The notes beneath the pieces were generated by a model, which was not told the DNA's origin, did not search any database, and saw only the letters and a program-made list of their open reading frames with translations. A stretch of 64,000 nt of DNA from assembly GCA_025455885.1 (NCBI GenBank), contig JALOLR010000001.1, forward strand, positions 195,441-259,440. Reading direction: 5' to 3'. Of this stretch, positions 16,750 through 63,938 are shown one piece after another (the stretch's first letter is position 1; every line of letters begins with the position of its first letter). Position numbers and translations under genes: made by a program. This DNA comes from Acidimicrobiales bacterium (GTDB lineage Bacteria; Actinomycetota; Acidimicrobiia; Acidimicrobiales; Acidimicrobilacustridaceae).

Positions 16750-18761
16750 CCGTTCCGGCCCCGACCGTCGTCGAGTCCCCGGTCACCGCTGACGCGGTGG
16801 CCGGGGGCCCGGTGGCGTCGGTTCGCGACCTCTCGGTCACCTTCCGGCGCGGGGGCCGGGAGGTCCGGGCCCTGCGGGGGGTGTCCCTCGACGTCGCTCC
16901 CGGGGAGATCGTCGGCCTCGTCGGCGAGTCCGGCTCGGGCAAGAGCGTGCTGGGGCTGAGCCTGCTCGGGCTCCTTCCGGCCACGCCGACACCCACCGTC
17001 GGAGGCTCGGCCGTCGTGGCCGGGGTCGACATGGTGTCGGCCCCGGCGGCCGAGCAGCGCCGGGTGCGCCGCCTGCACCTGGGAGCGGTGTTCCAGGACC
17101 CGATGACGTCGCTCGACCCCACGATGACGGTGGGCCGCCAGGTCGCGGAGGCGGCGGGGGACGACGAGGACCACCTCGAGTTGCTCGACGCGGTCGGCAT
17201 CCCCGACCCGGCCCCTCGGGCCCGCTCCTACCCCCACCAGCTCTCCGGTGGCCTGCGCCAGCGGGTCATGATCGCCATGGCCATCGCCGGGCGACCCCAG
17301 CTCGTCATCGCCGACGAGCCGACGACGGCCCTCGATGTCAGCGTGCAGGCCCAGATCCTCACCCTCATCCGTGATCTCTGCGACCGGACCGGGACGTCGT
17401 TCCTGTTCGTGACCCACGACCTGGGCGTCGCCGCACAGCTCGCCGACCGCATCGTCGTCATGTACGGCGGGCGGGTGGCCGAGACCGGCCCGGCTGCGGC
17501 GGTGCTCGGGGCGCCGGTCCACCCCTACACCACGGCGCTGCTGCGCAGCCGACTCACCCTGGCGAGCGACCGGACCAGGCCGCTGGCCACGCTGCCCGGC
17601 GAGCCCCCCGACCCGCGGGACCTGCCGCCGGGATGCGCCTTCGCGCCGCGGTGCGACTTCGCCGTCGACGCCTGCAACGACGCCCTGCCCGAGCTGACCT
17701 CCGCGCTCGTCGACGGCGACGGGCCCGGGGGCCACGAGGGCACCGTCGCGTGCATCCGGGCCGGCGACACGGTGGCCGCCGCGGCCGCCGAGCACGAGCC
17801 GTGGGGCCGGGTGTCCCTCACCCTCGCCGGGTACGGCACGCCGAGGGAGTCGCCGGTCCGCCTCGAGGGCGTCCACCGGTCCTTCGCGGTCCGCCAGGGG
17901 TTCCGCCGGTCCCGCACCCTTCACGCCCTGCGCGGTGTCGACCTCGAGGTCGGGGTCGGCCAGTCCGTCGCGCTGGTCGGAGAGAGCGGGAGCGGCAAGT
18001 CGACGTTGCTCCGGGTGGTCGCCGGGCTCCTCGGCCCGGACGCCGGACAGGTCACCCTCGGGGAGGGCGGGCAGCCCCAGATCGTCTTCCAGGACGCCGG
18101 TGCCTCCATGACCCCGTGGCTCACCGTCGGCGACCTGCTCGAGGAACGCGTCCTCGACCAGTCGAAGGCGGAGCGCCGCCGGCTGACCCGCGAGACGCTC
18201 GAGCTCGTCGGCCTCCCCGCCGAGGTGGCCGCCGCGAAACCCAAGCAGCTCTCCGGCGGGCAGCGTCAGCGCGCCGCGCTGGCCCGGGCGGTCATCCGGC
18301 CGCCGGCGTTGCTGTTGTGCGACGAGCCCACGAGCGCCCTCGACGTCTCCCTGGCGGCGACGGCGCTGAACCTGATCGGCCGCCTGCGCCGGGAGCTGGG
18401 CATGGCCGTGCTCTTCGTCACCCACGACCTGGCCGCCGCCCGCCTCGTCGCCGACCGGGTCGCCGTGATGTACCTCGGGCGCATCGTCGAGTCCGGTCCG
18501 GTCGACGACGTCATCGCCAACCCGCGCCACCCCTACACGCGGGCGCTGCTGGCCGCGGTCCCCGAACCGGGCGCGGTGCACGTGCCGCTCCCCGGCGACC
18601 CCCCCAGCGCCATCGACCCCCCGGCGGGGTGCGCCTTCCACCCCCGGTGCGCGCTGGCCACCGACGCCTGCCTCCAGGAGGACCCCGTGCTCGTCGTGTC
18701 GCCGTCGCTCGTCGCCGGCCCCGACCACCTCACCGCCTGCCACCACCAGGACCGCGACTGA
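16746..18761 (+). CDS. Fused two-domain ABC ATPase of peptide/nickel importer (DppD-DppF type)
   Basis: Energises the importer from the cytosolic side. The two nucleotide-binding domains are in one 671-aa chain. First: Walker A GESGSGKS 60-67, signature LSGGLRQR 167-173, Walker B ending Asp190-Glu191, and an oligopeptide-transporter tail ending near 340. Second: Walker A 413-420, LSGGQRQR 503-510, LLLCDEP 524-530. Each half ends with the Cys-containing PPGCAF-PRC/PAGCAFHPRC motif of this subfamily. Both domains look catalytically intact. It overlaps the receptor stop, and the next ATG shares a base with its TGA. Confidence 0.93.
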   Translation: MTVPAPTVVESPVTADAVAGGPVASVRDLSVTFRRGGREVRALRGVSLDVAPGEIVGLVGESGSGKSVLGLSLLGLLPATPTPTVGGSAVVAGVDMVSAPAAEQRRVRRLHLGAVFQDPMTSLDPTMTVGRQVAEAAGDDEDHLELLDAVGIPDPAPRARSYPHQLSGGLRQRVMIAMAIAGRPQLVIADEPTTALDVSVQAQILTLIRDLCDRTGTSFLFVTHDLGVAAQLADRIVVMYGGRVAETGPAAAVLGAPVHPYTTALLRSRLTLASDRTRPLATLPGEPPDPRDLPPGCAFAPRCDFAVDACNDALPELTSALVDGDGPGGHEGTVACIRAGDTVAAAAAEHEPWGRVSLTLAGYGTPRESPVRLEGVHRSFAVRQGFRRSRTLHALRGVDLEVGVGQSVALVGESGSGKSTLLRVVAGLLGPDAGQVTLGEGGQPQIVFQDAGASMTPWLTVGDLLEERVLDQSKAERRRLTRETLELVGLPAEVAAAKPKQLSGGQRQRAALARAVIRPPALLLCDEPTSALDVSLAATALNLIGRLRRELGMAVLFVTHDLAAARLVADRVAVMYLGRIVESGPVDDVIANPRHPYTRALLAAVPEPGAVHVPLPGDPPSAIDPPAGCAFHPRCALATDACLQEDPVLVVSPSLVAGPDHLTACHHQDRD

Positions 18762-49522: not shown

Positions 49523-51184
49523 ATGGGAATCGAGGCCGATCGCAGCGGGTGCGACGAGTGGCACGAGTTGCACCACGCCATCGAGGCGGTCGAGCCCGAC
49601 CCCACCGCGGTGGCGGTCGGCGAGCTGCTGGTGGCGCGTGAGCGGCTCGAGGCCCGGTTGTGCGCGGCGTTGTCGGGCTTCCTGAGCCGGGGCCTGCACC
49701 GGGTGGAGGGGTGGGGCTCGCCGGTCGGCTGGCTGAAGGCCCAGGGCGTGTCCGACGCCGACGCGAAGCGCCTGGCCGTCCGGGCCGCTCGCCTGGCGGC
49801 GTGGCCGGCGCTCGCCGCCTCGTGGTTCGACGGGGAGGTGTCCGCCGCCCAGGTCGAGGTCGTCGTCCGTCGGGTGCCCGCCCCGCTGGTCGACCTCTAC
49901 GGCGCCCACGACGCCGAGGTCTCGCCGTACCTCGTGGCCCTGTCGGTGGCCGACACCGCCCGGGCCGTGCGCGACTGGGTGGTCCGGGCCGAGGCCGTCG
50001 TCGACGGCCACGGGGCCGGGGCCGCCCGCTCGGGCCTGTCGGTCTCGCGCACCCTCGACGGGCGGGCCGTGCTCGACGGCGAGCTCGACCCCGACACCGC
50101 GGCCCTCACCGAGACGGCGCTGCGGGTGGCCGAGCGCCCCGACGAGCCGGGCGAGATCCGCACCGCCCGCGAGCGCTGCGGTGAGGCGTTCACCACGGTG
50201 GTGCGCTTCTTCTGCGACCACTTCGCGGCGCCCGGTGCCCGCCCCGCCCGCCAGCACCCCCACGTGGCGGTCACGATCGATCCCGACGACCTGATCGCCG
50301 GGTCGCTGCGCGGCCTCGGCATCGCCACCGCCGACGACCTCGAGCGCTTCCTCGCCGCCCGGTCGGTCACGGTGGTCGAGGAGGGCCTCTTCCGCGACGC
50401 CCTGGCGCATGCCGCCGGCGTCCCGGTCGACCACGACGGTCATCCGCTGCGTGCCGCCAGCCTGGCCACCCTCTTCACCGAGGGCACGCTGGTGCACCGG
50501 TTGCTCGTCGCCGACGGGCAGGTGATCGACCGGGGTCGAGACGTCCGGCTCGCCTCACCGGACCTGCGCGACGCCATGGTGGCCCGCGACCGGGGCTGTC
50601 GGTTCCCGCGCTGCGACGCGCCCACCGCCTGGGTCCACGCCCACCACCTCCGCCACTGGGAGCACGGTGGGGCCACCGACCTCGCCAACCTCGCCGGGCT
50701 GTGTGCCGCCCACCACGGGGTGGTCCACCGCCAGGGGTGGGACCTCACCCTCGAGCCCGACGCCACGTTGGTGTTCCGACGACCCGACGGCACGACCCTC
50801 GCCAGCCCACCGCCGCGACGGCGTCGACCGTCGCCCCTGCCGCTGCACCACCCCCGTCGTCGCGGCCTGATCCCCGAGCTCCCCGTGTTCCCCGTGCTCC
50901 CCGAGACCGGGGTGTCCGGCCCGGCGGCGGTCGCGCCCGGCGTGGATGCGGCGACCCCTGTCCCCGGTGAGGGCGAGCGGGTCGTCGGGCCCGGTGAGCA
51001 CGAGCACGAACACGAGGTCGAGGGCGAGCACGAGCACGATGCCGGGAGCGGGGAGCCGGAGCCCTCCGTCGACGAGCTCGATCGGATGGTGCGGGCCCGG
51101 GTGGTCGACCTGGTCGTCCGTCATCATCGCCGGCGCCCTCCACCGTCGGCGCCCGACCCGTGGGTCTGGCCCGAGGCCGGCTGA
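49523..51184 (+). CDS. DUF222 / 13E12-type HNH endonuclease-domain protein
   Basis: 553 aa. DUF222 domain at about 15-330 with the ERLEARLCAALSGF, GWGSPVGWLKAQGVSDADAKRL and EVSAAQVEVVV blocks. HNH nuclease at about 357-405: CRFPRCDAPTAWVHAHHLRHWEHGGATDLANLAGLCAAHHGVVH, with all Cys/His/Asn positions. A disordered tail (His-Glu repeats near 495-520) ends the protein. In actinobacteria these occur in many copies and have been described as mobile or restriction-like; role unproven. Confidence 0.9.
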   Translation: MGIEADRSGCDEWHELHHAIEAVEPDPTAVAVGELLVARERLEARLCAALSGFLSRGLHRVEGWGSPVGWLKAQGVSDADAKRLAVRAARLAAWPALAASWFDGEVSAAQVEVVVRRVPAPLVDLYGAHDAEVSPYLVALSVADTARAVRDWVVRAEAVVDGHGAGAARSGLSVSRTLDGRAVLDGELDPDTAALTETALRVAERPDEPGEIRTARERCGEAFTTVVRFFCDHFAAPGARPARQHPHVAVTIDPDDLIAGSLRGLGIATADDLERFLAARSVTVVEEGLFRDALAHAAGVPVDHDGHPLRAASLATLFTEGTLVHRLLVADGQVIDRGRDVRLASPDLRDAMVARDRGCRFPRCDAPTAWVHAHHLRHWEHGGATDLANLAGLCAAHHGVVHRQGWDLTLEPDATLVFRRPDGTTLASPPPRRRRPSPLPLHHPRRRGLIPELPVFPVLPETGVSGPAAVAPGVDAATPVPGEGERVVGPGEHEHEHEVEGEHEHDAGSGEPEPSVDELDRMVRARVVDLVVRHHRRRPPPSAPDPWVWPEAG

Positions 51185-51270
51185 TCGGCCCGCCGCATCA
51201 CCACCCCTCCCGGCGAGTCCGCCCTGACGGTTCCTCGGGACCCACGTGGGACTGGCGGTACCGTGGTCCG

Positions 51271-52005
51271 GTGGACGCGAGCCCGATGGCCGACGGGGAC
51301 CGGGGCCCGAGGCTGCTCGAGCCGGTCACGCTCGGATCACGCGTGGTGCCGTGCCCGGGCGTGCGCTACAGCGAGGTGGCCGGCATCCCGGTGCTGTGGG
51401 AGCCGGTCGGTCGGGTCCTCCACGAGCTGACTCCCGCCGGGGCGGCGCTGTGGGCGGCCCTCGACGGTCGCTCGGTCGGTGAGGTGGTGGTGGCCGCCGT
51501 GGGGCCCGCCGACCCGGCCCGGGGGGCGCTGGAGCGCGACACCGTCGACGTGGTGCGCCGCCTGCGGGCTCTTGGCCTGGCCGAGGATCGCGGCGACGCC
51601 GCCGCCCCGCCCGCGGACGCCGCCGCCGGGGTTCTGTTCGTGTCGGTCACGCTGGCCGGGCGGGTGGTGCGTGACGGCGCCGGGGCGGTGGTGGTGGTCG
51701 GCGGCGACCCGGGTGGCTGTTCGGCGGTCGAGCTCGACGTCGCCCATCGGCGTCTGGTGGCGGTGGCACCCCCGGGGGGCCGGCCGGTGGCGGCCGCCGT
51801 CGACCTCGTGGGCCTCGGCGTGCTCGACGACGATCCTGTGCTCGCCGACGGGGCCGCACCGGGCGCGGTCGGCCCGGTCGAGGCGCTGGCCGCGGTGATG
51901 GCCGCCACGCCCGTCGACCCCGATCCGCCGGCAGGCCTGCTCGACGCCATGGCCGCGTTGGTCGAGGCGGTGCCGGTCGAGGTCCGGGCCGCGGCGTCGG
52001 TCTGA
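51271..52005 (+). CDS. PqqD-like protein with an uncharacterised C-terminal domain
   Basis: 244 aa. Residues about 25-95 fit a PqqD/RRE winged-helix fold (VPCPGVRYSEVAGIPVLWEPVGRVLHELTPAGAALWAALDGRSVGEVV through VVRRLRALGLAEDR). The rest (from 110) is a beta-rich unit where VVVVGGDPGGCS aligns loosely with a P-loop but lacks the Lys, suggesting a decayed HprK-like kinase; inference. GTG at 51271 follows TACCGT (51259-51264) by six bases; CCCACGTGGG (51241-51250) is a perfect palindrome further up. PqqD-like, HprK-like and nucleotidyltransferase genes often accompany polysaccharide loci. Confidence 0.65.
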   Translation: MDASPMADGDRGPRLLEPVTLGSRVVPCPGVRYSEVAGIPVLWEPVGRVLHELTPAGAALWAALDGRSVGEVVVAAVGPADPARGALERDTVDVVRRLRALGLAEDRGDAAAPPADAAAGVLFVSVTLAGRVVRDGAGAVVVVGGDPGGCSAVELDVAHRRLVAVAPPGGRPVAAAVDLVGLGVLDDDPVLADGAAPGAVGPVEALAAVMAATPVDPDPPAGLLDAMAALVEAVPVEVRAAASV

Positions 52006-52118: not shown

Positions 52119-53279
52119 TCAGACCGCGGCTCGCGTCCCGGGGCGGGGTAGGCGATCGAGGGTGCGCCGGGCCACGCGGGCGGCCCGGGCGGCGGGCGAG
52201 GGGTAGGTGCCGGGCGCGGGGGTGAGGGTGGCGCGGCGCAGGACGGCCCGTTCGGCGGGGGTGCGCAGCTCGAGGTAGGTGGCCACCGCCTCGAGGGCGC
52301 CGATCGGGTCGTCGGGTCGTTCGACGCGCAGCCACAGCCGGTCACGCCACCGGGGGACGAACCCGTGAGCCCAGCCGAGCACCGTGGCCGCGGCCCCGCC
52401 CGGGCCCACCGACGCCGGGTCGAGGCGCAGCTCCCGGGCCGCCATGAGCACCCCGACGGCGAGCAGCGCTTCGGAGCCCCACCGCCGGGACAGCACCACG
52501 AGGCGGTCGGGGTCGAGGTCGGGTGACACCAGCACCTGGGCGACGTCGCGCAGGGTGAGCGCTCGTCGCCAGCCGAGCACGAGGAGGTGGGCGCAGGCGT
52601 GCAGGAGGGTGGCCTCCGCCGACAGCGTGGTGTGGTCGGCCCGGCCGTAGGTGAAGGGACGGGGGCGCTCCCACAGCTCGTCGGGGGGCACCCGCACGCC
52701 GAGGGGGCCCCACACCAGGGTCCGGTGGACGTCGACCTCGAGGCCGCCGGGGAGGGCGACGGTGATCCCCCGCCCGACGGTGGCCGCGTAGCCGGGCGCC
52801 GGGTCGGGGTCGAGGCGCACGCCGCCCATCGCGGCGAGGAGCCGGTCGGTGGCGTCGATGTCGGCGCCGTGCACCAACAGGTCGAGGTCGCGGGTGGGGC
52901 GCATCTGGGGGTCGGGGTAGTCGAGGGCGCCGAGGGCCGGGCCCTTCAACAGGCGCACGGCCACCCCGCCGTGGGCGAGGTGGTCGACGATGTCGGCGCT
53001 GCGCTGCTCGTGCCACATGCGGTTGCGGGTCAGCTCCACCTCGAGCTCGGCGACCTCGGCGCGCTGCGCGGCGGTGGCGGGCAGGGCGTCGTCGGCGACC
53101 GCCGCCACCAGCAGTCCGTCGAGGCGGTGGTGGCCGACCTCGGCCCGCAGCGCCGTCCAGGCGCCGTCGGTGAGCGGCCGGGTGCTGAGCGGCCGGGCCG
53201 GGTCGTCGGTCAGGCCGTGGGCCAGGACCGCCCGGGTGGTGTCGGCGAGGTCGAACCCCCACGCCGGGGCCGTGGCCAC
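52119..53279 (-). CDS. Nucleotidyltransferase-family protein of polysaccharide loci
   Basis: 386 aa, PF14907-like uncharacterised nucleotidyltransferase. The core is LLKGPALGALDYPDPQMRPTRDLDLLV (about 110-136) with the catalytic Asp-x-Asp, and HACAHLLVLGWRRALTLRDV further on. Family members appear in exopolysaccharide and RiPP gene clusters and have no settled substrate. GTG start; four bases after the Wzc-like stop, so it is the last gene of that minus-strand operon. Confidence 0.78.
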   Translation of the reverse strand: MATAPAWGFDLADTTRAVLAHGLTDDPARPLSTRPLTDGAWTALRAEVGHHRLDGLLVAAVADDALPATAAQRAEVAELEVELTRNRMWHEQRSADIVDHLAHGGVAVRLLKGPALGALDYPDPQMRPTRDLDLLVHGADIDATDRLLAAMGGVRLDPDPAPGYAATVGRGITVALPGGLEVDVHRTLVWGPLGVRVPPDELWERPRPFTYGRADHTTLSAEATLLHACAHLLVLGWRRALTLRDVAQVLVSPDLDPDRLVVLSRRWGSEALLAVGVLMAARELRLDPASVGPGGAAATVLGWAHGFVPRWRDRLWLRVERPDDPIGALEAVATYLELRTPAERAVLRRATLTPAPGTYPSPAARAARVARRTLDRLPRPGTRAAV

Positions 53280-53283
53280 GGGC

Positions 53284-55128
53284 TCAGCGGGCGGTGCTGG
53301 GGTCGACCGGCCGGTCCTCGGCCACGGCCGACGGGGCCGGCTCGGGGGCGGCGTCCTTCGCCGGAGTGGCCGGAGTGGCCGGTGCGACGGTGCCCTTGCC
53401 GTTCTTGGCGGCCCCCCGCCGGGACGACTCCTCGTTGTAGTAGTAGTCGTAGTAGGGGTCGGCGTCGTTGTTGTTGCTGGCGTTGAACACCACGCCGAGC
53501 ACGTCGGCCCGGTAGCGCAGCAACACGTTGGCGGCCCGTTCGGCCAGCCCGGTGCGGGTCTGGCCGGAGCGCAGCACCAGCACCACGGTGTCGGCGGCGG
53601 CCAGCAGGTCGGTGGTGTCGTTGGTGGTGAGCATGGGGGGCGTGTCGAGCAGGACCATGTCGAACCTCGGTCGCCACGTCTCGATGGTGCGCCGGAGCTG
53701 CATCACCATGTCGGCCGGGGTGTTCTGGCCCCGCGGCGCGGGGATGAACCACACGCCGTCGAGGCGGGTGACGGCCGGCTGGTCGGGGTGGTCGAGGTCG
53801 GGCACGGGGGCCAGGTACTTGGCGATGGCGGGCTTGCGGTAGTCGCAGTCGATGACGAGGGTGCGCATGCCGCTCGAGCCGAACACGCCGGCCAGGTTGG
53901 CGACGGTGGTGGTCTTGCCCTCCCCGGGGTTGGGCGAAGTGATCATCACCACCGGGGCGTGGCTCGGTGCCTGGGTGAAGTCGCCCGAGGTGCCGACGAT
54001 GCTCGGCAGGTGCTCGCGCAGCACGAACATGACCGCGGTGCGCACCTCCCGGTAGCGCTCGGCGACCCGGGAGCGGGGGGCGTCGACGGAGGCCACGTCG
54101 GTGGACTGGCGCTGGCTCTTGGCCAGCACGGGCACCTCGGCGATGACGGGGAACCCGGTGACGGCCTCCACCCGGTCGCGGCGGCGCAGGCGGTCGTCCC
54201 ACGCCTCGACGATGAAGGCGGTGACGATGCCCATCACCAGCCCGGCGGCGGCGCCGATGCCCATCCGGGTGGTGCGTGACACCGGGGTGGCGGTGGCCAG
54301 GTTCGTCTCGGAGAGGTTGTCGGTCGGCGCGGCGACCACCCCGGGGTTGATGGACCCGCGGGCGTTGCGGTTGGCGTCGAGGCGGGTGTTGTAGGCCGTG
54401 GCGTTGATCTGCACCGGGGTGGCCGACTGGAGGGTGGACAGCCCGCCCGACGGCCCGCCCTGGGTGGCGAGCAGCGTGAGCTGTTCGTTGGTGAGGCGGT
54501 ACTGGTTGATGATCGAGTCCTGCTCGGCGCGCAGGAGGTCGGCGTCGTCGGGGTTGTCGCGGATCTGCTGTTCGAGCTCTTCGCGCTGGGCCTTGAGGGC
54601 GTCGAGCTCGGCGAGCACCTCGTCGCGTTGGGCGGCGAACTGGCGTTGGGCGTCGTCGGCGACGAAGGCGTTGAGGTCGGCGGCGGTGGTGTCGGCCAGG
54701 GTGACGGCCTGGGCGGGGTCGGTGGAGATGGCGGTGACGTCGATGGCCAGCACGTCGCTGCGGGCGGTGGCGGTGACGAGGTCGTTGAAGGTGTCGGCGC
54801 TGATGCCGAGCTGGCCGGTGACCGACTCGACGACGTCGGCGGAGCGCACCAGGAAGGCGGTCTGTTGCAGGTTGGGGACGTTGAGGCTGCCGTCGCCGCC
54901 GTTGACGATGAGGGTGTTGGTGGCCCTGAAGTAGCTGGTGGGGTCGCGCACCTCCTTCACCAGCATGGCCGACACCAGCCCGCCGAGCAGGCCGACGACG
55001 AGGCCGAGCACCACCCACTTCCAGCGGCGTTGCAGCACGCCCACGTAGGAGCGCAGGAGGTTCTGGTCGTCGCCGTACGCGACCGGTCCGGGTCGGGGAG
55101 GGCCGGTGGGGGGATCGGTGAGCGTCAA
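53284..55128 (-). CDS. Wzc-like polysaccharide co-polymerase / BY-kinase
   Basis: 614 aa with Wzz-type membrane domain plus cytosolic tyrosine autokinase. Transmembrane helices at about 38-58 and 287-305 enclose a coiled-coil periplasmic region (QRDEVLAELDALKAQREELEQQIRDN). The kinase has Walker A SPNPGEGKTTT near 400, Walker A' LVIDCDYRKP and Walker B MVLLDTPP. A C-terminal Tyr cluster (DPYYDYYYNEE, near 555-566) is the autophosphorylation site. It controls polymer length and export. TTG at 55128 is chosen because it overlaps the wzy-like stop (TTGA); no ATG or GTG precedes the first helix. Confidence 0.92.
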   Translation of the reverse strand: MTLTDPPTGPPRPGPVAYGDDQNLLRSYVGVLQRRWKWVVLGLVVGLLGGLVSAMLVKEVRDPTSYFRATNTLIVNGGDGSLNVPNLQQTAFLVRSADVVESVTGQLGISADTFNDLVTATARSDVLAIDVTAISTDPAQAVTLADTTAADLNAFVADDAQRQFAAQRDEVLAELDALKAQREELEQQIRDNPDDADLLRAEQDSIINQYRLTNEQLTLLATQGGPSGGLSTLQSATPVQINATAYNTRLDANRNARGSINPGVVAAPTDNLSETNLATATPVSRTTRMGIGAAAGLVMGIVTAFIVEAWDDRLRRRDRVEAVTGFPVIAEVPVLAKSQRQSTDVASVDAPRSRVAERYREVRTAVMFVLREHLPSIVGTSGDFTQAPSHAPVVMITSPNPGEGKTTTVANLAGVFGSSGMRTLVIDCDYRKPAIAKYLAPVPDLDHPDQPAVTRLDGVWFIPAPRGQNTPADMVMQLRRTIETWRPRFDMVLLDTPPMLTTNDTTDLLAAADTVVLVLRSGQTRTGLAERAANVLLRYRADVLGVVFNASNNNDADPYYDYYYNEESSRRGAAKNGKGTVAPATPATPAKDAAPEPAPSAVAEDRPVDPSTAR

Positions 55129-56501
55129 GGGGGTGGTGGTCCTGGCCGGGCGACGGGGGAGAGGCCGATGCTACCGGTCGTGCCCGGGGCGATCAGCGCG
55201 CGCTCGTCGTCGTCGTCCTCGGTGCCGGGGTCGGCGGTGAGGCCCAGCCCGGTGAGGATGAGCGCCGCGGTGAGGGGGCCGGCCACCCAGAAGATGTCGG
55301 CGAAGCCCTGGGTGACGCGCAGCACGAAGGCCAGCATGGCCAGCTCGGCGAGCAGGGCGGGGGAGCGGCGCAGGGCGAGGGCGGTGGCGCCGAGTAGCAC
55401 GAGGACGCCGGCGAGGCCGATGACGCCGGCCTCGCCGAGCTCGCCGATCACCCAGTTGTGAGGGGTGGGTCGGGGCTCGGCGGGGTCGGTCCAGAACCGC
55501 AGGCCGGCACCCACGAGGCGGTTCTCGACGATGACCTCGCTCCACGTGCTGCGCAGCACGTCGGTGCGGGTGTTGATGGCGTTGAACTTGAGCTCGTTGC
55601 TGGGGCGGGAGAGGTCGCGCTCGTTGATGGAGACGGCGGTGACGGTGATGAGCGCCGCGCAGGCCACCAGCAGGGCGATGGACACCTGGCGGCGACGGCC
55701 CCGGTTGCCCTGGAGCAGGGGGCGCACGGCGAGGGCGACGACCAGGCCGATGGCCGCGGCCCTCGACTGGGTGGCGGCGAGACCCACGATCATCACGACG
55801 CGCAGGCCGACGACCACCTCGCGGCGCCAGGCCAGGCTCGGGGCGGCCGCCCAGAGGACGAGGAAGGCGGCGGCCAGCACCAGCCCGGCGTGGTTCTTGT
55901 TGATGAAGGCGAGGTCGGCGGGGGCGAAGCCCTGGCGGAGAGTGCTGAGGGTGGCCAGCACGGCCACCACGCTGCACCCGAGGACGAACAGCCGCAGGGC
56001 GGGGCGCACCACGCCGCTGTGCACGATGGCCACGCCGATGAGGATCGAGCCGCCGAACAACAGGCCCCGGTGGCCCCACTCGAGCACGGAGCGCAGCTCG
56101 TTGTTCGGCACCAGGGTGACGGCCAGGAAGCCGAGGTAGGCGGCCAGCGCGCCGAGCACGAGGCGGAGGCGACGGTCGCGCCACGGCACGAAGCGCAGGG
56201 CGGCGACGACGCCGAGGACGGTGACGGCGTCGGAGACGCTGAGGTCGAACCGGGCGGGCCCCACCCGGATGGCGATCAGTGTGGCGGGTAGGGCGAGGAC
56301 GAGGACGAGGCGGGGGAAGGCCACCGCGCAGGCCAGGAGGACGAGGGCCCCGACGACCTGGAGGGCGTTGCCGGGGTCGCGGGCGGCGACGAGGGCGACG
56401 GCGAACTGGGCGACGGCGACCCCGATCACCAGGAGGGCCAGACCGACCCGGTTGCCGCTCGAACCCGACGAGCGTGCCGGGGGGGCGATCACGCTGCTCA
56501 C
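55125..56501 (-). CDS. O-antigen-polymerase/ligase-like membrane protein (Wzy-like)
   Basis: 458 aa, about twelve helices. The large extracytoplasmic loop holds NINTRTDVLRSTWSEVIVENRLVGAGLRFWTDPAEPRPTPHNWVIGELGEAGVIG, the RSxxW...G.G...HN...E.G pattern of the Wzy_C superfamily. It would polymerise or ligate surface glycans. TACCGT (minus strand, 56515 to 56510) lies eight bases before the GTG, so it probably starts the operon with Wzc and the nucleotidyltransferase. The C-terminal tail is acidic and then Pro-rich. Confidence 0.88.
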   Translation of the reverse strand: MSSVIAPPARSSGSSGNRVGLALLVIGVAVAQFAVALVAARDPGNALQVVGALVLLACAVAFPRLVLVLALPATLIAIRVGPARFDLSVSDAVTVLGVVAALRFVPWRDRRLRLVLGALAAYLGFLAVTLVPNNELRSVLEWGHRGLLFGGSILIGVAIVHSGVVRPALRLFVLGCSVVAVLATLSTLRQGFAPADLAFINKNHAGLVLAAAFLVLWAAAPSLAWRREVVVGLRVVMIVGLAATQSRAAAIGLVVALAVRPLLQGNRGRRRQVSIALLVACAALITVTAVSINERDLSRPSNELKFNAINTRTDVLRSTWSEVIVENRLVGAGLRFWTDPAEPRPTPHNWVIGELGEAGVIGLAGVLVLLGATALALRRSPALLAELAMLAFVLRVTQGFADIFWVAGPLTAALILTGLGLTADPGTEDDDDERALIAPGTTGSIGLSPVARPGPPPP

Positions 56502-56565: not shown

Positions 56566-57621
56566 TCAGGCGCCGACCCGCCGGTACACGGCGGCCACCG
56601 CGGCGGCGTGACGGGCCGGCGTCAGGTGCTCGGCCCAGTGGGCGTGCAGGGCGGCGCCGTGGGCCGCCCGCGCCTCGGGGTCGTGGGCCAGGCGGCGCAG
56701 CTCGGCGCCGGCCGCGTCGGCGTCGCCGGGGGCGAAGAGGTGCCCGAGGCCCGCCGCGCCCGCCGTCTCGAGGTGCCCGCCTGCGGCGGTGGCCACCACG
56801 GGGGTGGCGGCGGCCATGGCCTCGATGACGGCCAGGCCGAGCGGTTCGGCGGTGGCGGTGGCCAGGAAGATGCCGGCGCGGGCCAGCCGGGCGGGGACGT
56901 CGTCGACGGCGCCGACGAACGTGACCGACCCGGTGGGGCCGAGGGCGGCGGCCTGGGCTTCGAGGTCGGTGCGCTGCGCGCCGTCGCCGGCCACCACCAT
57001 CCGCCAGCCGTCGGCGGCCAGGCCGCTCGCCGCCCAGGCCCGCAGGGCGGTGGCGGTGTCCTTCTCGGCCTCCAGGCGCTGGGCGACGAGTACCACCTGT
57101 TCGCGGGGCGCGTCCGGCTCCGTCCACGGCACGCCGCTGATCAGCACCTCCGCCCCGGGCTGGCCGGCGTGTCCGGCCACGAACCGGCTGATGGCGATCT
57201 GGGCGTCGAGCCGTCGGGGCAGCGGGGCCCACAGCGTCCTGCGGAGGGCGTCGCGTCCCCGGGGTCGGGCGAAGTGGAGGGTGGCCACCACCGGCACCCG
57301 TCGGCGGGCGGTGGCGGCCACCGCCGCCACCTCGGCGTCGGTCATGTGGGCGTGGACCACGTCGGGGCGGGCGTCGAGGAGGGCCCGGACGTCGTGGGCG
57401 AACGACCCGGAGGGCTGGTGGGCCACGCCGGTGCCGGCCAGGGCGGCCCGCATGCGGGCCGGGTCGCCGCCGATCACGGTCACGTCGTGGCCGAGGCGCA
57501 CCAGCTCGGGCGCCAGGTAGGTGACGTAGCGCTCCACGCCGGCGAAGGCGTCGGTGCGTACGAGGTGGACGACGTGGCGCGGCGTCCCGCCCGGTGTGGC
57601 CGGGGACGGGGGGGCGCTCAC
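56566..57621 (-). CDS. GT4-family glycosyltransferase
   Basis: 351 aa GT-B fold. N-terminal HVVHLVRTDAFAGVERYVTYLAPELVRLGHDVTVIGGD, central PDVVHAHMTDAEVAAVAA, C-terminal QVVLVAQRLEAEKDTATALRAWA and AEPLGLAVIEAMAAATPVVATAAGG with the family Glu pair. Two in-frame starts are close; GTG 57621 is preceded by TACGTT (57635 to 57630) and is favoured. It is divergent from the plus-strand glycosyltransferase operon beginning at 57745. Confidence 0.9.
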   Translation of the reverse strand: MSAPPSPATPGGTPRHVVHLVRTDAFAGVERYVTYLAPELVRLGHDVTVIGGDPARMRAALAGTGVAHQPSGSFAHDVRALLDARPDVVHAHMTDAEVAAVAATARRRVPVVATLHFARPRGRDALRRTLWAPLPRRLDAQIAISRFVAGHAGQPGAEVLISGVPWTEPDAPREQVVLVAQRLEAEKDTATALRAWAASGLAADGWRMVVAGDGAQRTDLEAQAAALGPTGSVTFVGAVDDVPARLARAGIFLATATAEPLGLAVIEAMAAATPVVATAAGGHLETAGAAGLGHLFAPGDADAAGAELRRLAHDPEARAAHGAALHAHWAEHLTPARHAAAVAAVYRRVGA

Positions 57622-57744
57622 CGGGCCGGAACGTAGCAGTGGCACGACGGGCCGCCGGTAGTGTTCGCCGCTCGGGCCGTGCCGATCCGGTGGGTCCGTG
57701 GTGCTCCCCGCGGCCGCCGGTCGCGGCCCTCCCCGAGGCGGCCC

Positions 57745-58836
57745 GTGAAGGTTCTGCGCATCTACCACTCCGGGGTCGTGGCGGCGTGGCGGCGGCGCGA
57801 CGCCGAGCTCGCCGCCCGGGGGATGGACGTGACGCTGGTGTCGGCGCGGCGCTGGGACGAGGGCGGGGAGGTCGTCGAGCTCGGCGACGCCGATGCGCAC
57901 GTGGTGGGCGCCCGCACGTGGGGGACGCACCCGTTCACGTTCGTGTACGACCCCCGTCCGCTGTGGCGGGCGTTGCGCTCGTCGGGCGCCGAGGTGATCG
58001 ACGTCCACGAGGAGCCGGCCAGCCTGGCGGTGGCCGAGGTGCTGGTGCTGGCCCGTCTGGCCGGCCACGGCCGCACGCCGGTGTGCCTGTACTGCGCGGA
58101 GAACACCGAGAAGCGCTACCCGTGGCCGTTCCGGTGGTTCGAGCGCCGGGCGTTGCGGCGGGCGGTGGCGGTGCACACGTGCAACGACGAGGCGGGCCGC
58201 ATCCTGCGGCGCAAGGGGTTCAGCGGGGAGGTGGTGAACCTGGGCCTCGGCGTCGACGTCGAGCGGTTCGCGCCCACCGCCCCGCCTCGTGACGGCGCGC
58301 CGATGGTGGTCGGCTACGTGGGCCGGCTCACCGAGCGCAAGGGGGTGGGCGTCCTGGTCGACGCGGTGGCGGCCGTCGAGGGGGTGGAGCTGGTGGTGGT
58401 GGGCGACGGCCCCGATCGGGCGGCGGTCGAGGCCCGGGTGGCGCGGCTCGGCCTGGGCGACCGGGTGCGCGTCGTCGGCTACGCCGACCACGACGCCCTC
58501 CCCGGGGTGTACGGCGGGTTCGACGTGGTGGTGGTGCCGTCGCTGGCCACCCCGGGGTGGGTGGAGCAGTTCGGGCGGGTGGCGGTGGAGGCCATGGCCG
58601 CCGGGGTGGCGGTGGTGGCCTCCGACGTCGGGTCGCTGCCCGAGGTGCTGGGCGATGCCGGGGTGCTGGTGGCCCCGGGCGACGTGGAGGTGCTGGCCGG
58701 GGCCCTCGCCGAGCTGCGTGACGACCCGGGCCTGCGGGCGGCCCTCGCCGCGGCGGGCCGCGAGCGGGCCCGGCACTACTCGTGGGCGGCCGTCGCCGGG
58801 CGCCAGGCCGAGCTGTACGCGGGGATGGCGCGGTGA
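57745..58836 (+). CDS. GT4-family glycosyltransferase
   Basis: 363 aa. LRIYHSGVVAAWRRRDAELAARGMDVTLVSARRW start, IDVHEEPASLAVAEVL, then VVGYVGRLTERKGVGVLVDAVA and WVEQFGRVAVEAMAAGVAVVASDVGSLPEVLGDAGVLVAPGD. A frame extension to 57661 exists, but GTG 57745 starts the fold and has GAGG six bases upstream. Its stop overlaps the giant glycosyltransferase (GTGA). Donor and acceptor unknown. Confidence 0.9.
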   Translation: MKVLRIYHSGVVAAWRRRDAELAARGMDVTLVSARRWDEGGEVVELGDADAHVVGARTWGTHPFTFVYDPRPLWRALRSSGAEVIDVHEEPASLAVAEVLVLARLAGHGRTPVCLYCAENTEKRYPWPFRWFERRALRRAVAVHTCNDEAGRILRRKGFSGEVVNLGLGVDVERFAPTAPPRDGAPMVVGYVGRLTERKGVGVLVDAVAAVEGVELVVVGDGPDRAAVEARVARLGLGDRVRVVGYADHDALPGVYGGFDVVVVPSLATPGWVEQFGRVAVEAMAAGVAVVASDVGSLPEVLGDAGVLVAPGDVEVLAGALAELRDDPGLRAALAAAGRERARHYSWAAVAGRQAELYAGMAR

Positions 58837-61800
58837 GCGTCGACGTGGTGGTCGTGACGTTCAACTCGGCGGAGCTGCTGCCGGCCGCGCTGGGGGGCCT
58901 GCCGTCCGATGCCCGGGTGGTGGTGGTCGACAACGCCTCGGACGACGACTCGGCGGCGGTGGCCCGCGGCTGTGGCGCCCACGTGGTGGCCGGGGCCGTG
59001 AACGCCGGCTTCGCGGCCGGCGCGAACCGGGGGGCGGCCCTCGGTGACGGTGAGGTGATCCTGTTCCTCAACCCCGACGCGGTGGTCGAGCCGGCGACGG
59101 TCGACGCGTTGGCCGCCCGGTTCGCGGCGGATCCGTCGTTGGGGGTCCTGTCGCCCCGGCTGGTGCGCCCCGACGGCTCCGAGCAGCGGGTGCGCTGGCC
59201 GTTCCCGTCGGCGGTGGGGGCGTGGGCCGAGGCGCTGGGCCTGCGCCGTCTGGGCGGCGCGGGTCGCCGTGAGGGGGCGGGCGGGTTCGTGATCGGCGCC
59301 TGTCTGATGGTGCGCCGTTCGGTGTTCGAGGCCGTGGGCGGTTTCGACACGCGGTTCTGGCTGTACAGCGAGGAGGCCGACCTGTGCCGGCGGGTGCTCG
59401 ACGCCGGGTGGCGGGTGGAGGTGGCGGAGGAGATGTCGGCCCGCCACGTCGGGCGGGCCAGCGAGCGGGGGGTCGAGGCGCTGGTCTTCGAGCACTTCGA
59501 GCGGGGCGGCGAGCACTTCGTCGCCAAGCACGCCGGACGGCGTTCGTTGGTCGTCTACCGGTTGGGCAACCTGAAGGGCGCCGCCCTCCGGGCGGTGATG
59601 GCGCGCTCCGGGGTGCGGCGCGCCCTGCACCGGGCCCGGGTGGCCCGCCTGTTGGGGGTGTTGGGCCGCCATCCGGGCACCGTCGGGCTCGACAGCCCGG
59701 CGACCGCCGCGCCGGGGGTGGGGCTGGTGGTGTGCTCGTTGGAGCCGTGGGACGAGGTGTGGCGGCGCAACCAGTTCCTGGTGCGCGAGCTGCTGGCCCT
59801 CGACCCCGATCGCCGGGTGCTGTTCGTCGAGCCGCCGTTCGACCGGGTGCACGAGCTGCGCCGGGGGAGCGGCCGGCGCCATCACCGGGGGTTGCGCCCG
59901 GTGGACGGTGAGGGCCGGGTGGTGCGCGTCGAGCCCGTGAAGGTGTGGCCTCGGGCGGCGGGCCCGTTCGCCACCCGGTCGCTGCGCCGCCAGGTGCGCG
60001 CCGCGGCGCGGTCGCTCGGGTTCGTGGCCCCCACGCTGTGGGTGAACGACCCCGCGTACGCCGGTCTGGCCTCGGCGACGGGGTGGCCGGCGGTCTACGA
60101 CGTGACCGACGACTGGACCGAGGCCGGTGACGGCGAGCGGGCCACGGCCCGGGTGCGGGCCGACGAGGCGGTGCTGGCCGGCGAGGTGGGGGCGGTGGTG
60201 GTGTGCTCGGAGGGGTTGGCGGCGTCGCACGCCGGGGCCCCGGGGTTGGAGCTGATCCCCAACGCCGTCGACGCCGAGCACCTCACCGCCCCGGTGCCGC
60301 GCCCTCGCGACCTGCCCGCCGGGCCGGTGGCGGTGTACGTGGGCACGCTGCACGAGGACCGCCTCGACGTCGACCTGGTGGTGTCGCTGGCCGGGGCGGT
60401 GCCCGGGCTGGCGGTGGCGCTGGTGGGCCCCGACGCCCTGGGCGAGGCCGCCCGGGCGCGTCTGGTGTCGGCCGGGGTGGCGCTGCTCGGGTCGCGTTCG
60501 TACGCCGACGTGCCCGGGTACCTCCAGCACGCCGACGTGGTGGTGGTGCCCCACGTGGTGTCGCCGTTCACCGAGAGCCTCGACCCGATCAAGGCCTACG
60601 AGTGCCTGGCCGTGGGGCGCCCGACGGTGGCCACCCCGGTGGCCGGCTTCCGGGGGCTCGGCGGGCCGGTGCGGGTCGCCGAGCGCGACGAGTTCGTCCT
60701 GGCCGTGTCGCGTGTGCTGGGCGAGGGCCGGGTGGACGCCGATCCGCGGCCGGTGCCCACCTGGGCCGAGCGGGGCGCGGCGTTCGACGCGGTGCTGCGC
60801 CGGGTGGCGGGGGGCGAGCGGCGCCTGCGGGTGGTGTACGTGGATCACTGCGCCCAGCTGTCCGGCGGTGAGCTGGCGCTGGCCCGGTTGCTGCCCGCCC
60901 TGGAGGGGGTGGACGCCCACGTGATCCTGGGCGAGCGCGGCCCCTTGGAGTCGCGCCTGCGCGATGTCGGGGCGACGGTGGAGGTGTTGGCTCTCGACGA
61001 GGGGGTGGCCACCACCCGGCGGGCGGAGGTGGGCGCGGCGCTGGGGGCCCGCCGGGCGCTCGCCGCGGCGCGTGACACGTGGGTGCTGGCGCGCCGCCTT
61101 CGGGAGCTGCGCCCGGACCTGGTGCACACCAACTCGTTGAAGGCCGCGCTGTACGGCGGGGTGGCCGCCCGGCTGGCCGGGGTGCCGGTGGTGTGGCACG
61201 TGCGTGACCGGATCGCCGCCGACTACCTGCCGGCCCCGGCGCGGGTGGTGGTGCAGTCCCTGGCGAGGGTGGTGCCGTCCGCGGTGATCGCCAACTCGGC
61301 GGCGACGCGGGAGACCCTCGCTCTCCATCGGGGGGTGGCGGTGGTGCCGAGCCCGGTGGTGTTCGACGCCGCGGAACCGGTGGGCGACGGCGGGCCGGGC
61401 GGGTCGGCGCCGGTCCGCCCGTTCACGGTGGCGATGGTCGGCCGGCTGGCGCCCTGGAAGGGCCAGGACGTGTTCGTGCGGGCGTTCGCACGGGCGTTCC
61501 CCGACGGCGACGAACGGGCGGTGTTGGCCGGGTCGGCGATGTTCGGCGAGGACGCCTTCGCCGCTGAGCTGGGGGGGCTGGTCGAGGAGCTCGGCCTGGG
61601 GGAGCGGGTGACGTTCCTGGGCTTCGTCGACGACGTGGGCGCGGTGCTGCGCGGGGTGGACTGCCTGGTGCACGCGTCGGTGATCCCCGAGCCGTTCGGG
61701 CAGGTGGTGGTGGAGGGGATGGCGGCCGGTTTGGCGGTCGTGGCCGCGGACGCCGGCGGGCCGGCCGAGGTGGTGACCCACGGGGTGGACGGGCTGTTGT

Positions 61801-61991
61801 GCCCGCCGGGCGACGTTGGGGCGCTGGCGGCGGTGCTGCGCCGGTTGGCCGACGACCCCGGGTTGCGGGTGCGCCTGGGAGCCGCCGGCCTGGTGCGGGC
61901 GGCCGACTTCTCTCCGGATGCCGTCGCGGACCAGGTCCGTGCCGTCTATGGCGGGGTGCTCAGCAATGAATCGCAGCAACCTGGCATCTAG
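58833..61991 (+). CDS. Three-domain glycosyltransferase fusion (GT2-GT4-GT4 type)
   Basis: 1052 aa in one frame. Domain 1 (1 to about 270): GT2, VDVVVVTFNSAELLPAAL, VVVVDNASDD, FLNPDAVVEP (Asp-x-Asp region) and GGFDTRFWLYSEEADLCRR. Domain 2 (about 294-655): GT-B, LVVCSLEPWDEVWRRNQFL, VYDVTDDWTEAGDGERA and YVGTLHEDRLDVDL, with the SFTESLDPIKAYECLAVGRPTVA-type end. Domain 3 (about 663-1045): GT4, VVYVDHCAQLSGGELALARLLPAL, VAMVGRLAPWKGQDVFVRAFARAF, EPFGQVVVEGMAAGLAVVAADAGGPAEVV. Three successive transfers by one polypeptide are likely. No frameshift is seen; the linkers are short. Confidence 0.9.
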   Translation: MSVDVVVVTFNSAELLPAALGGLPSDARVVVVDNASDDDSAAVARGCGAHVVAGAVNAGFAAGANRGAALGDGEVILFLNPDAVVEPATVDALAARFAADPSLGVLSPRLVRPDGSEQRVRWPFPSAVGAWAEALGLRRLGGAGRREGAGGFVIGACLMVRRSVFEAVGGFDTRFWLYSEEADLCRRVLDAGWRVEVAEEMSARHVGRASERGVEALVFEHFERGGEHFVAKHAGRRSLVVYRLGNLKGAALRAVMARSGVRRALHRARVARLLGVLGRHPGTVGLDSPATAAPGVGLVVCSLEPWDEVWRRNQFLVRELLALDPDRRVLFVEPPFDRVHELRRGSGRRHHRGLRPVDGEGRVVRVEPVKVWPRAAGPFATRSLRRQVRAAARSLGFVAPTLWVNDPAYAGLASATGWPAVYDVTDDWTEAGDGERATARVRADEAVLAGEVGAVVVCSEGLAASHAGAPGLELIPNAVDAEHLTAPVPRPRDLPAGPVAVYVGTLHEDRLDVDLVVSLAGAVPGLAVALVGPDALGEAARARLVSAGVALLGSRSYADVPGYLQHADVVVVPHVVSPFTESLDPIKAYECLAVGRPTVATPVAGFRGLGGPVRVAERDEFVLAVSRVLGEGRVDADPRPVPTWAERGAAFDAVLRRVAGGERRLRVVYVDHCAQLSGGELALARLLPALEGVDAHVILGERGPLESRLRDVGATVEVLALDEGVATTRRAEVGAALGARRALAAARDTWVLARRLRELRPDLVHTNSLKAALYGGVAARLAGVPVVWHVRDRIAADYLPAPARVVVQSLARVVPSAVIANSAATRETLALHRGVAVVPSPVVFDAAEPVGDGGPGGSAPVRPFTVAMVGRLAPWKGQDVFVRAFARAFPDGDERAVLAGSAMFGEDAFAAELGGLVEELGLGERVTFLGFVDDVGAVLRGVDCLVHASVIPEPFGQVVVEGMAAGLAVVAADAGGPAEVVTHGVDGLLCPPGDVGALAAVLRRLADDPGLRVRLGAAGLVRAADFSPDAVADQVRAVYGGVLSNESQQPGI

Positions 61992-62069
61992 AGCAGCTCA
62001 TTCGCTGGACGGATCGGGGTTACGGTCTTGTCGCTAGAGCCATGCCGGCCGAGTGACTCGGGGCGCAGA

Positions 62070-62792
62070 GTGGGACAGCGGGTGAAACAGGTGGTTCGGC
62101 CGACCATCGAGCGCGTCGCCCGCCTGGCTCGAGTGCGGGTCGAGCCTGCGTATCACGGTCTCGATCAGCATCGTCTGAGGGTTCTTCGAGCGAAGGGCGT
62201 GGAGCTCGTGCTCGACGTCGGCGCCAACGTCGGCCAGTACGCCCAATCGCTTCGTCGAGATGGCTACTCGGGTCGGATCGTCTCGTTCGAGCCCCAACCC
62301 GAGGCGGCGGGGGTCCTCGAGTCCAGGTCGCTGGATGACCCCCTCTGGTCGGTCGAGCCATACGCGCTTGGAGCCGAGGCATCGGAACTCCCGATCTATA
62401 GAACGTCTGATTCCGTGAGCTCGTCGCTTCTCGCACCGAGGAACGATGCGCTCGGGCATGGCTTCCTGGCCGGAGAATGGCGGGGTGCAACGGAAGTCCG
62501 TCGCCTGGACGACGTCATCCTTCCCGTGGAGGCCGACTCCACGGTGTATCTGAAGCTCGACGTGCAGGGCTATGAGCTGAACGTTCTCGCCGGGGCTACC
62601 GCAACGCTTGCTGGCGTCGCCGCAGTGGAGTGCGAGCTGACGGTTCAGCCCCTTTACGAGGGACAGGTGCTGATCGAGGAGATCGTCGGCCATCTGCGCG
62701 CCCTCGGTTTCACGCCGACCTGCCTGACGCGTGGCTACACCGACCCGGTGTCGCACGAGGTGGTCCAGATGGATGGGATCTTTGTCCGCTAG
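62070..62792 (+). CDS. FkbM-family methyltransferase
   Basis: SAM-dependent O-methyltransferase, about 240 aa: VLDVGANVGQYAQSLRRDGYSGRIVSFEPQPEAAGVL, LKLDVQGYELNVLAGA and VECELTVQPLYEGQVLIEEIVGHLRALGF. Often modifies glycan sugars. The start is uncertain: GTG 62070 is used; TTG 62028 would extend it but sits almost on TACGGT (62021-62026), a probable -10 box. From here GC content drops relative to the rest of the window. Confidence 0.85.
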   Translation: MGQRVKQVVRPTIERVARLARVRVEPAYHGLDQHRLRVLRAKGVELVLDVGANVGQYAQSLRRDGYSGRIVSFEPQPEAAGVLESRSLDDPLWSVEPYALGAEASELPIYRTSDSVSSSLLAPRNDALGHGFLAGEWRGATEVRRLDDVILPVEADSTVYLKLDVQGYELNVLAGATATLAGVAAVECELTVQPLYEGQVLIEEIVGHLRALGFTPTCLTRGYTDPVSHEVVQMDGIFVR

Positions 62793-62846
62793 CGGGGTTC
62801 AGTGGGGCGATCTGCAGCAGTTCTGCACGACGGCATCGGCTTTGCT

Positions 62847-63938
62847 ATGAGCAGTCGACTCTGCGTCGTTCACAACAACGTCGACGGGGAGTCGAGTATC
62901 GGGAAGATCGCCCGATGGGCCGTACGCACCGCACTGGCGGACGGCTGGGAGGTGACGGTGGTCGCGCGTGACCTCGACCCCGAGCTGCGCGACCGCGTGG
63001 ACTGGCGGCGGCTCTACGTCCCACCGCGCATCCATCTCGTGCAGTGGGCAGCGGCTCGGGCGACCGTGAAACGGGCCATGGCCGGTCGTTCTCATGATGT
63101 CGTGCACGTCTTCCAGGCGCAGGTCGCCGCGCTGGCGGACGTGTACCACGTCCAGTACCTCTCGAAGCCTGCGCAGGATGCGGGCAGCTTCCCGTTGGGT
63201 CCGGGACTGCGGTCCGCAGCTGCGGGCGCTCAGCTGCGTGCGGTCGCTGCTCTGGAAGGCGGGTACCTGCGCCACCTTGGCGAGCGCCCCGGCCTCCTCT
63301 TCTGCAGCGAGTTGCTGCGCGGAGAGTTCCGGTCGCGGTACCCCGAGCCCCGAGAGACGTGGGTGCTCCCCAACCCGAATCCCGAGCCGATCGAACTGTC
63401 CCACGAAGAGAGGGACGCAGCCCGGGCAGGTTTCGTGAAGGATTCGACGGCTCCGGTCTGGGGCTACCTCGGTGGGTGGGACGAGCGGAAAGGCTTTCGT
63501 GAGCTGTTCGATGCGCTGCGACTCGAGCCGACAGCGCACCTGCTCTTTGCTGGCCCGGGTGGGCCCGGCGATGTCCCGGTTGACCTGCTTGGTCGGGTCA
63601 CCGTGCTTGGTCGGCTCCAGGACCTGCGGGCGTTCTTCGCTGCCATCGACGTGTTGGCGGTGCCGAGCCGTTTCGAGCCCTACGGCCTGGTCGTCGGCGA
63701 GGCGGCTGCGTTCGGGGTTCCCGTCGTCACAAGCCCGGCGGTCGGGGCAGCCCCGCTCGTCGAGCGCCACCACGCCGGTGAGGTCGCGAGCGGATCGGCC
63801 GCCTTGGCCGCGGCGTTGTCACGATGGTCGGCGGGTTCCCGCTCCTCGCGAGCCGCCTGCGATCGGTTGGCGGCCGCCACCAGTGAATCGGCGCTGGGTC
63901 CCGAGCTCCTCGAGGTCTACGGACGTGCCGCTCGCTGA
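62847..63938 (+). CDS. GT4-family glycosyltransferase
   Basis: 363 aa. SSRLCVVHNNVDGESSIGKIARWAV start, HDVVHVFQAQVAALADVYHVQYLSKPAQD, and C-terminal WGYLGGWDERKGFRELFDALRL and EPYGLVVGEAAAFGVPVVTSPAVGAAPLVERHHAGEV. The EPYGLVVGEA element carries the donor-binding glutamates. ATG 62847 lies close after the FkbM gene; same unit likely. Codon usage is less GC-biased than that of the upstream genes. Confidence 0.9.
   Translation: MSSRLCVVHNNVDGESSIGKIARWAVRTALADGWEVTVVARDLDPELRDRVDWRRLYVPPRIHLVQWAAARATVKRAMAGRSHDVVHVFQAQVAALADVYHVQYLSKPAQDAGSFPLGPGLRSAAAGAQLRAVAALEGGYLRHLGERPGLLFCSELLRGEFRSRYPEPRETWVLPNPNPEPIELSHEERDAARAGFVKDSTAPVWGYLGGWDERKGFRELFDALRLEPTAHLLFAGPGGPGDVPVDLLGRVTVLGRLQDLRAFFAAIDVLAVPSRFEPYGLVVGEAAAFGVPVVTSPAVGAAPLVERHHAGEVASGSAALAAALSRWSAGSRSSRAACDRLAAATSESALGPELLEVYGRAAR

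Follow-up and report, generated by a model that had tools for sequence, protein, structure and literature searches.

A conserved fusion of three glycosyltransferase modules in a probable surface-polysaccharide locus

Results and Discussion

We found that a single gene in the 64-kb stretch of DNA analysed here (hereafter, the window) encodes three glycosyltransferase modules in one chain. The gene (58833-61991, +) starts with GTG and specifies a protein of 1052 amino acids that comprises a GT2 module of the GT-A fold (D1; 58833-59708, +), a middle GT-B module with weak similarity to TuaH (D2; 59709-60806, +), and a C-terminal GT4 module closest to HepE/Alr3699 (D3; 60807-61991, +). The fusion is genuine and conserved. 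It is probably the trimodular glycosyltransferase of a surface-polysaccharide locus, in which it would take part in building a lipid-linked oligosaccharide.

The fusion gene is unbroken and recurs in other assemblies

In the ORF lists, an open frame spans 58782-61991 (+), and it gives 1052 amino acids when read from the GTG at 58833; the translation of 58833-61991 contains no internal stops. Pfam placed a GT2 domain at residues 5-168, Glyco_transf_4 at 708-839, and Glycos_transf_1 at 862-1019, and the Glycos_transf_1 and Glyco_trans_1_4 families each matched two stretches of the protein. The domain layout is a GT2 domain at about 1-280, a GT-B domain at about 296-643, and a second GT-B domain, of the GT4 type, at about 664-1047. 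The GC3 of the gene stayed between 0.92 and 0.99 in windows of 75 codons (start codons 1-951) that cover both joints, with a drop to 0.83 confined to the final 53 codons. The unbroken frame, flat GC3, and domain matches bear out the original prediction of a GT2 and two GT-B domains joined in one 1052-aa chain without a frameshift.

Complete D1-D2-D3 proteins occur in five assemblies: that of the window (G000), that of a congener (G001), and G138, G204, and L039, where G204 and L040 are counted as one. The order of the modules is unbroken in the four other assemblies, with 51-64% identity to the window copy across the whole protein (64% for G001, 59% for L039, 57% for G138, and 51% for G204/L040). 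We give practically no credence to the idea that three genes were merged by an assembly or frameshift artefact. Because four other assemblies have the identical domain order, assembly error is excluded; five distinct assemblies carry the same fusion, the 64-kb window has no N bases, and codon bias shows no break at the joints. We also looked for a hidden stop between the domains and found none, and the independent assemblies, the stop-free frame, and the steady GC3 together rule out both kinds of error. An open frame of 1067 amino acids on the opposite strand (58776-61979, -) mirrors the whole fusion gene and is presumably a by-product of the kind often seen opposite genes of very high GC and GC3.

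Properties of the three modules

Module D1 matched PF00535 with 58.3 bits (cut-off 23.3) and contains the motifs VVDNAS, NPD (residues 80-82), and EEADLCRR (180-187). The eight motif positions that we counted, including N80, D82, E180, E181, D183, and R187, are invariant in all 24 rows of alignment A4. We used A4 for the D1 comparisons (its split rows are 35-42% identical) and set aside alignment A1, in which single-domain GT2 rows were misplaced (15-24%). A GT-A domain, a D/NXD motif, and predicted catalytic acidic residues mark D1 as a GT2 module. Its NXD motif resembles that of a known rhamnosyltransferase module. We considered dTDP-rhamnose as the donor and rejected it as an assignment; RmlC-like genes were present in all four genomes searched, and since none reached the TIGR01221 cut-off we leave the D1 sugar unnamed. 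Fusions of a D1-type GT2 with a GT4 also exist in both orders, with the GT4 first, for example, in a Luteimicrobium contig (L116:4837-6846) and the GT2 first, for example, in an Acidimicrobiaceae MAG (L058:8761-10752).

Module D2 is without a solved relative by sequence: our search of the PDB returned no matches at E<=1. Residues 399-601 matched the NCBIfam TuaH family (NF047676) with 45.9 bits; D2 is like TuaH in giving this match and unlike it in scoring far below the equivalog cut-off of 550. When modelled alone, D2 gave a pLDDT of 95.3 and a pTM of 0.93, and the model superposed on MshA (3c4q; Z 31.0, rmsd 3.0, 335 residues), sucrose-phosphate synthase (6kih; Z 30.8), and GumK (3cv3; Z 28.3, rmsd 4.0). 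As regards its CAZy family, D2 combines a GT-B fold and a weak TuaH match with a glutamate spacing of E-x8-E, not EX7E. One could suppose that one module, most likely D2, is catalytically dead and serves as a scaffold or acceptor-binding part, a notion to which the missing PDB relative and the variability of position 581 among 43 family rows (29 with E, 10 with D, three with L, and one with H) lend something. Yet the window protein keeps E581, and all 43 rows share H574, K587, and E590, as expected of a GT-B donor site that is active. D2 is also the module in which the two congeners agree most (68%, vs 61 and 57% for the other modules). We therefore regard a dead D2 as improbable.

Module D3 superposed on HepE/Alr3699 (4xsp) with a Z of 43.8 and an rmsd of 2.6 over 350 aligned residues at 29% identity, and both glutamates of its EX7E motif (953/961) are invariant in the seven rows of alignment A2. 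The GT-B fold and the EX7E motif are those expected of a GT4 enzyme, which D3 is predicted to be. A family of GT4-GT4 fusions has a C-terminal half of the D3 type (L161:5103-9581, L165:5428-7647, L166:515-2827).

Arrangement of the modules in the whole chain

We ran AlphaFold2 on the whole chain with an alignment of 51 rows, only three of which covered D1. The resulting model had a mean pLDDT of 87.0 and a pTM of 0.63, and pLDDT fell below 50 at residues 120-153, 212-225, and 232-234, all within D1, and at 286-293 and 1048-1052. The GT-A domain is followed by helices to about residue 279 and by a poorly predicted linker at about 286-293; the first GT-B domain then begins at about 296. Just three helices of 20-26 residues lie beyond the GT-A core. 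Neither Pfam nor the model showed a terminator module in the chain, be it a methyltransferase, a kinase, or a Kdo transferase; three glycosyltransferase domains with short linkers fill it, without space for a fourth domain. Structural superposition rows for the whole-chain model cover D3 only and say nothing on matches of D1 or D2.

The joints bear on whether the modules work as a processive three-step line, as the original prediction suggested, in which the acceptor would move from D1 to D2 to D3 without leaving the enzyme. This would be a narrower form of the role that we favour. Two observations speak for it: the module order is constant in the five full proteins, and D2 and D3 are almost directly joined, with the C-terminal helix of D2 (644-660) leading into the first strand of D3 at 665. 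However, the D1-D2 linker (286-293) has low confidence in the model, the D2-D3 joint differs in length among relatives when the full proteins are aligned, and the pTM of the whole chain is just 0.63. A rigid channel is not evident, given the low-confidence linker and the variable joint, and we consider processive transfer possible but doubtful.

Genes surrounding the fusion

The fusion follows GTb, a GT4 gene (57661-58836, +), with a 4-bp overlap (GTGA), and the GTG start of the fusion sits in the stop codon of GTb. A relative of GTb adjoins the fusion in all five loci, at 48-59% identity to the window copy and on the opposite strand in L039. The 4-bp overlap is present in all four same-strand loci (the window, G001, G138, and G204), where the start in G001 is our own reading of the junction. 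GTa (56566-57633, -), a divergent GT4 gene, shares 52% identity with the N-terminal half of a GTa-GTb protein in G204. There, GTa and GTb form one fusion of 763 amino acids (L169:10905-13196, -), the halves of which match the separate, divergent GTa and GTb of the window, and five glycosyltransferase modules are encoded in two adjacent overlapping genes.

Beyond GTa lies a gene for a membrane protein of the Wzy_C/O-antigen ligase family (55125-56501, -; Pfam PF04932). We treat it as a candidate polymerase, a role assigned with reserve because PF04932 also includes ligases. In each of the five loci, a Wzy_C gene lies no more than 16 kb from the fusion (3.0 kb in G000, 15.3 kb in G001, 3.0 kb in G138, 2.3 kb in G204, and 1.4 kb in L039), and in G000 and G001 the copy at the locus is the sole Wzy_C match of the genome. 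A Bac_transf gene, for a predicted sugar-phosphate transferase acting on a lipid carrier, is likewise found within 14 kb (G000, 13.9 kb; G001, 9.6 kb; G138, 11.2 kb; G204, 11.6 kb; L039, 1.2 kb). All five loci thus have both an initiating Bac_transf gene and a Wzy-family gene, two features of a Wzx/Wzy-dependent locus. Some of the genomes carry further copies of the Bac_transf, Wzy_C, and ABC genes away from the locus.

A plain Wzx/Wzy pathway is nonetheless weakened by the search for a flippase of the Polysacc_synt family (PF01943), which found nothing close to the fusion in the four G genomes searched. ABC2_membrane genes stand there instead, at 13.1 kb (G000), 8.8 kb (G001), and 0.1 kb (G204) from the fusion, that is, in three of the four genomes. 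In G000, Wzy_C and the ATPase gene lie upstream of the fusion and ABC-2, ABC_tran, and Bac_transf downstream. In G138, the fusion is flanked by genes for a chain-length/ATPase protein on the upstream side and for an ABC exporter-like protein on the downstream side. The G204 locus runs on one strand as NTP_transf_5, Wzy_C, GTa-GTb, the triple gene, ABC2_membrane, and ABC_tran, and L039 has Wzy_C, the triple gene, and Bac_transf.

The ATPase gene of the window encodes a ParA-type protein by Pfam (53284-55128, -), which by analogy may be a chain-length/tyrosine-kinase-like protein; Pfam gave no Wzz match for it, and the counterpart in L168 scored 21.6 bits against a cut-off of 25.5. Next to it is a gene for an NTP_transf_5 protein (52119-53279, -), also present in the G204 locus. 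Downstream of the fusion are an FkbM-family methyltransferase (62028-62792, +; Pfam, NCBIfam), which may O-methylate a sugar, and a further GT4 gene (62802-63938, +; Pfam). A group of PqqD-like, NTP_transf_5, and (weakly) HPr-kinase-like proteins recurs near these polysaccharide loci, in the window (51160-52005, 52119-53279) and elsewhere (L119:15088-16584, 17454-18725; L169:14319-16919), and is joined by radical SAM/SPASM proteins in G204.

Distribution and history of the modules

We searched 397 genomes of the order and 396 of the phylum. In the order set, 11 genomes had D2 (E<=1e-50) and 24 had a close D3 (E<=1e-60); in the phylum set, four had D2 (E<=1e-50), including the window's own genome and its congener. 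With D2 alone as the query, the 11 genomes divided into four with the triple gene, one with D2-D3, and six with a split D2. In the 4 to 33 kb read around each of these six, a D1 relative was near in two (G065, G365) and a close D3 was on the same contig in one (G065).

We also examined 80 loci, the best 80 found with the whole fusion as the query, a choice that favours multi-module loci. D2 is present in 67 of these loci; in four it is joined to D3, with or without D1, and in 63 it is split, and a D1 and/or D3 relative was present in the same stretch for 50 of the 63 (D1 only in 20, D3 only in 13, both in 17). The cut-offs in these counts were of our choosing (200 and 300 profile bits for D1 and D2, and 140 BLAST bits for D3), as were those that separate module rows from general GT2 and GT4 proteins (270, 300, and 335 profile bits for D1, D2, and D3). 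Rows with internal stops or fewer than 200 amino acids were left out of the module row sets. The original prediction had asked whether homologues are split in other genomes; split relatives of the modules do exist, often near one another.

Two further cases are of note. In L041, a D2-D3 protein is truncated by the contig end, and because it aligns to the window protein only from residue 276, inside the D1-D2 linker, it may be a triple that was cut. In L042 (G331), D2-D3 is accompanied by a D1 relative in a nearby gene of its own, and this relative belongs to the other D1 clade. Distinct D2 rows comprise 63 that stand alone (three cut at the contig end), five in triples, two before D3, and two behind a GT4.

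In the trees, the fused D1s group together as a single clade (SH-aLRT 96), far from every split D1 found, and the split D1s are therefore relatives, not orthologues. One clade of fused D2s was not rejected (p-AU 0.64, with 11 distant rows left out), while an unconstrained quick tree scattered them, weakly. For D3, one clade of the seven fused modules was rejected in the careful tree of all 40 rows (p-AU 0.0004), and the rejection was gone when eight rows were removed and a quick tree was used (p-AU 0.095 to 0.345). The eight were four distant rows (one also cut), three more cut at the contig end, and one near-copy. A dropped row, the D3 of L136, which is cut at the contig end and may or may not be fused, is the neighbour of the window's D3 in the tree.

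A single origin of the fusion fits the D1 and D2 results and is possible on these trees. D3-type modules occur alone, behind different GT4 modules, behind D2 only, and behind D1-D2. We do not take swapping of D3 as established, since the AU result depended on the choice of rows and the two trees were made by different methods. An account in which the five coupled transferases of two overlapping genes (GTa-GTb, then D1-D2-D3) form a modular assembly line, the D1-D2 core was inherited as a unit, the C-terminal module was exchanged between fused and stand-alone forms, and swapping rewrites the repeat unit seems to us unlikely.

Downstream of the window (L119:6080-10344, -; G000:C1:263080-267344), four neighbouring genes encode individually a D3-like GT4, a D1-like GT2, a methyltransferase, and a D2-like GT-B enzyme, an arrangement that looks like a distant version of the trio without the fusion. 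Adjoining D2 and D1 relatives, distant from the actinobacterial ones, are also found in two MAG contigs titled Akkermansia muciniphila (L106, L112).

Proposed role of the fusion

We propose that synthesis would begin with a Bac_transf enzyme, which would attach the first sugar phosphate to a lipid carrier, and that GTa, GTb, D1, D2, and D3 would then extend the lipid-linked glycan at the cytoplasmic face. The lipid-linked unit would cross the membrane, more likely via the ABC transporter of the locus because the search around the fusion found no flippase of the Polysacc_synt family; after export, polymerisation or ligation of the unit would fall to a Wzy-family enzyme. The fusion and the overlap of start and stop codons may hold consecutive enzymes close together and at equal amounts. 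The conserved fusion, the motifs, and the context of the locus support the predicted placing of three transferases in one chain and strongly suggest that they share one glycan pathway; the activity of each module, the sugars, consecutive action on one glycan, and the order of action are inferred. The further claim that the fusion sets the repeat unit was too strong. A GTb relative adjoins the fusion in every locus, GTa and GTb are themselves fused in G204, and Bac_transf is always within 14 kb. The unit thus includes two or more transferases beyond the three modules, and the fusion would not fix the repeat by itself.

Fusion may serve stoichiometry and co-location only, with three distributive enzymes of one pathway tethered together, which is again a narrower form of the proposed role. 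The modules occur in many settings, as seen from the contexts of distinct rows. Among 40 D3 rows, 23 stand alone (four cut at the contig end), 10 are behind another GT4, five are in triples behind D1-D2, and two are behind D2; the 47 D1 rows divide into 20 behind a GT4, 16 alone (two cut at the contig end), six before a GT4, and five in triples. Nothing speaks directly against such tethering, which is hard to separate by sequence from processive transfer, and we put its chances at about even.

To our knowledge, the surface polysaccharides of this bacterial group have been little studied. If the modules act on one glycan, as we propose, the order of the modules and the neighbouring genes would predict part of the repeat unit. 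The split, doubly fused, and triply fused relatives would also provide a natural series in which to ask whether fusing changes fidelity or only stoichiometry.

Comparison with known multimodular glycosyltransferases

The fusion has at least two glycosyltransferase domains in one uninterrupted chain, an arrangement already known from WbdA, WbbB, O7 ORF6, WsaE, and Cps3D. It is a modular variant of this known type, given that relatives of its modules occur split or in other fusions. No description of a GT2/GT-B/GT-B fusion was present among the literature matches listed, a set that mostly stops short of subscription papers.

WbdA of K. pneumoniae O3 and O5 (O5 being the same as E. coli O8) has a glycosyltransferase module for each linkage, two or three of them in a single chain (PMC11231755). 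The fusion is like WbdA in having several glycosyltransferase modules in a single polypeptide; however, all WbdA modules are mannosyltransferases that use GDP-mannose, and the protein is a polymerase of an ABC-transporter pathway (PMC11231755). The fusion, in contrast, joins a GT2 to two different GT-B modules in a locus with a Wzy-family gene. WbbB of K. pneumoniae O12 and ORF6 of O7 also have several modules per chain, and O7 ORF6 includes a GT2 module with an NXD motif (N1230, D1232) comparable to the NPD of D1 (PMC11231755). Unlike the fusion, in which a terminator was not found, they carry a terminator module and a coiled-coil ruler (PMC11231755).

WsaE of Geobacillus stearothermophilus is a trifunctional surface-glycan enzyme, the gene of which has stop and start codons that overlap with those of a neighbour (PMC2943079). 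A multifunctional surface-glycan chain with an overlapping neighbour is also what we see for the fusion and GTb, although WsaE combines two glycosyltransferases with a methyltransferase (PMC2943079), whereas the fusion has three glycosyltransferases.

Cps3D (PDB 8qoy) was ranked seventh by Foldseek with the whole model (967 columns) and resembles the fusion in being a large chain with adjacent GT-B-type catalytic domains; overall superposition of the whole-chain model was poor (TM 0.27/0.28). The CgoT activity of Cps3D is one that we take to be glycerol-phosphate transfer. Cps3D differs in having a TPR domain together with glycerol-phosphate and galactose transferases (PMC11666461). HepE/Alr3699 (4xso, 4xsp, 4xsr, 4xsu) is like D3 in both fold and sequence but is a chain of a single GT-B unit. 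What is distinct here is the combination of one GT2 with two dissimilar GT-B modules, in an actinobacterial locus with Wzy-family and ABC genes, and the many alternative fusions in which these modules are found.
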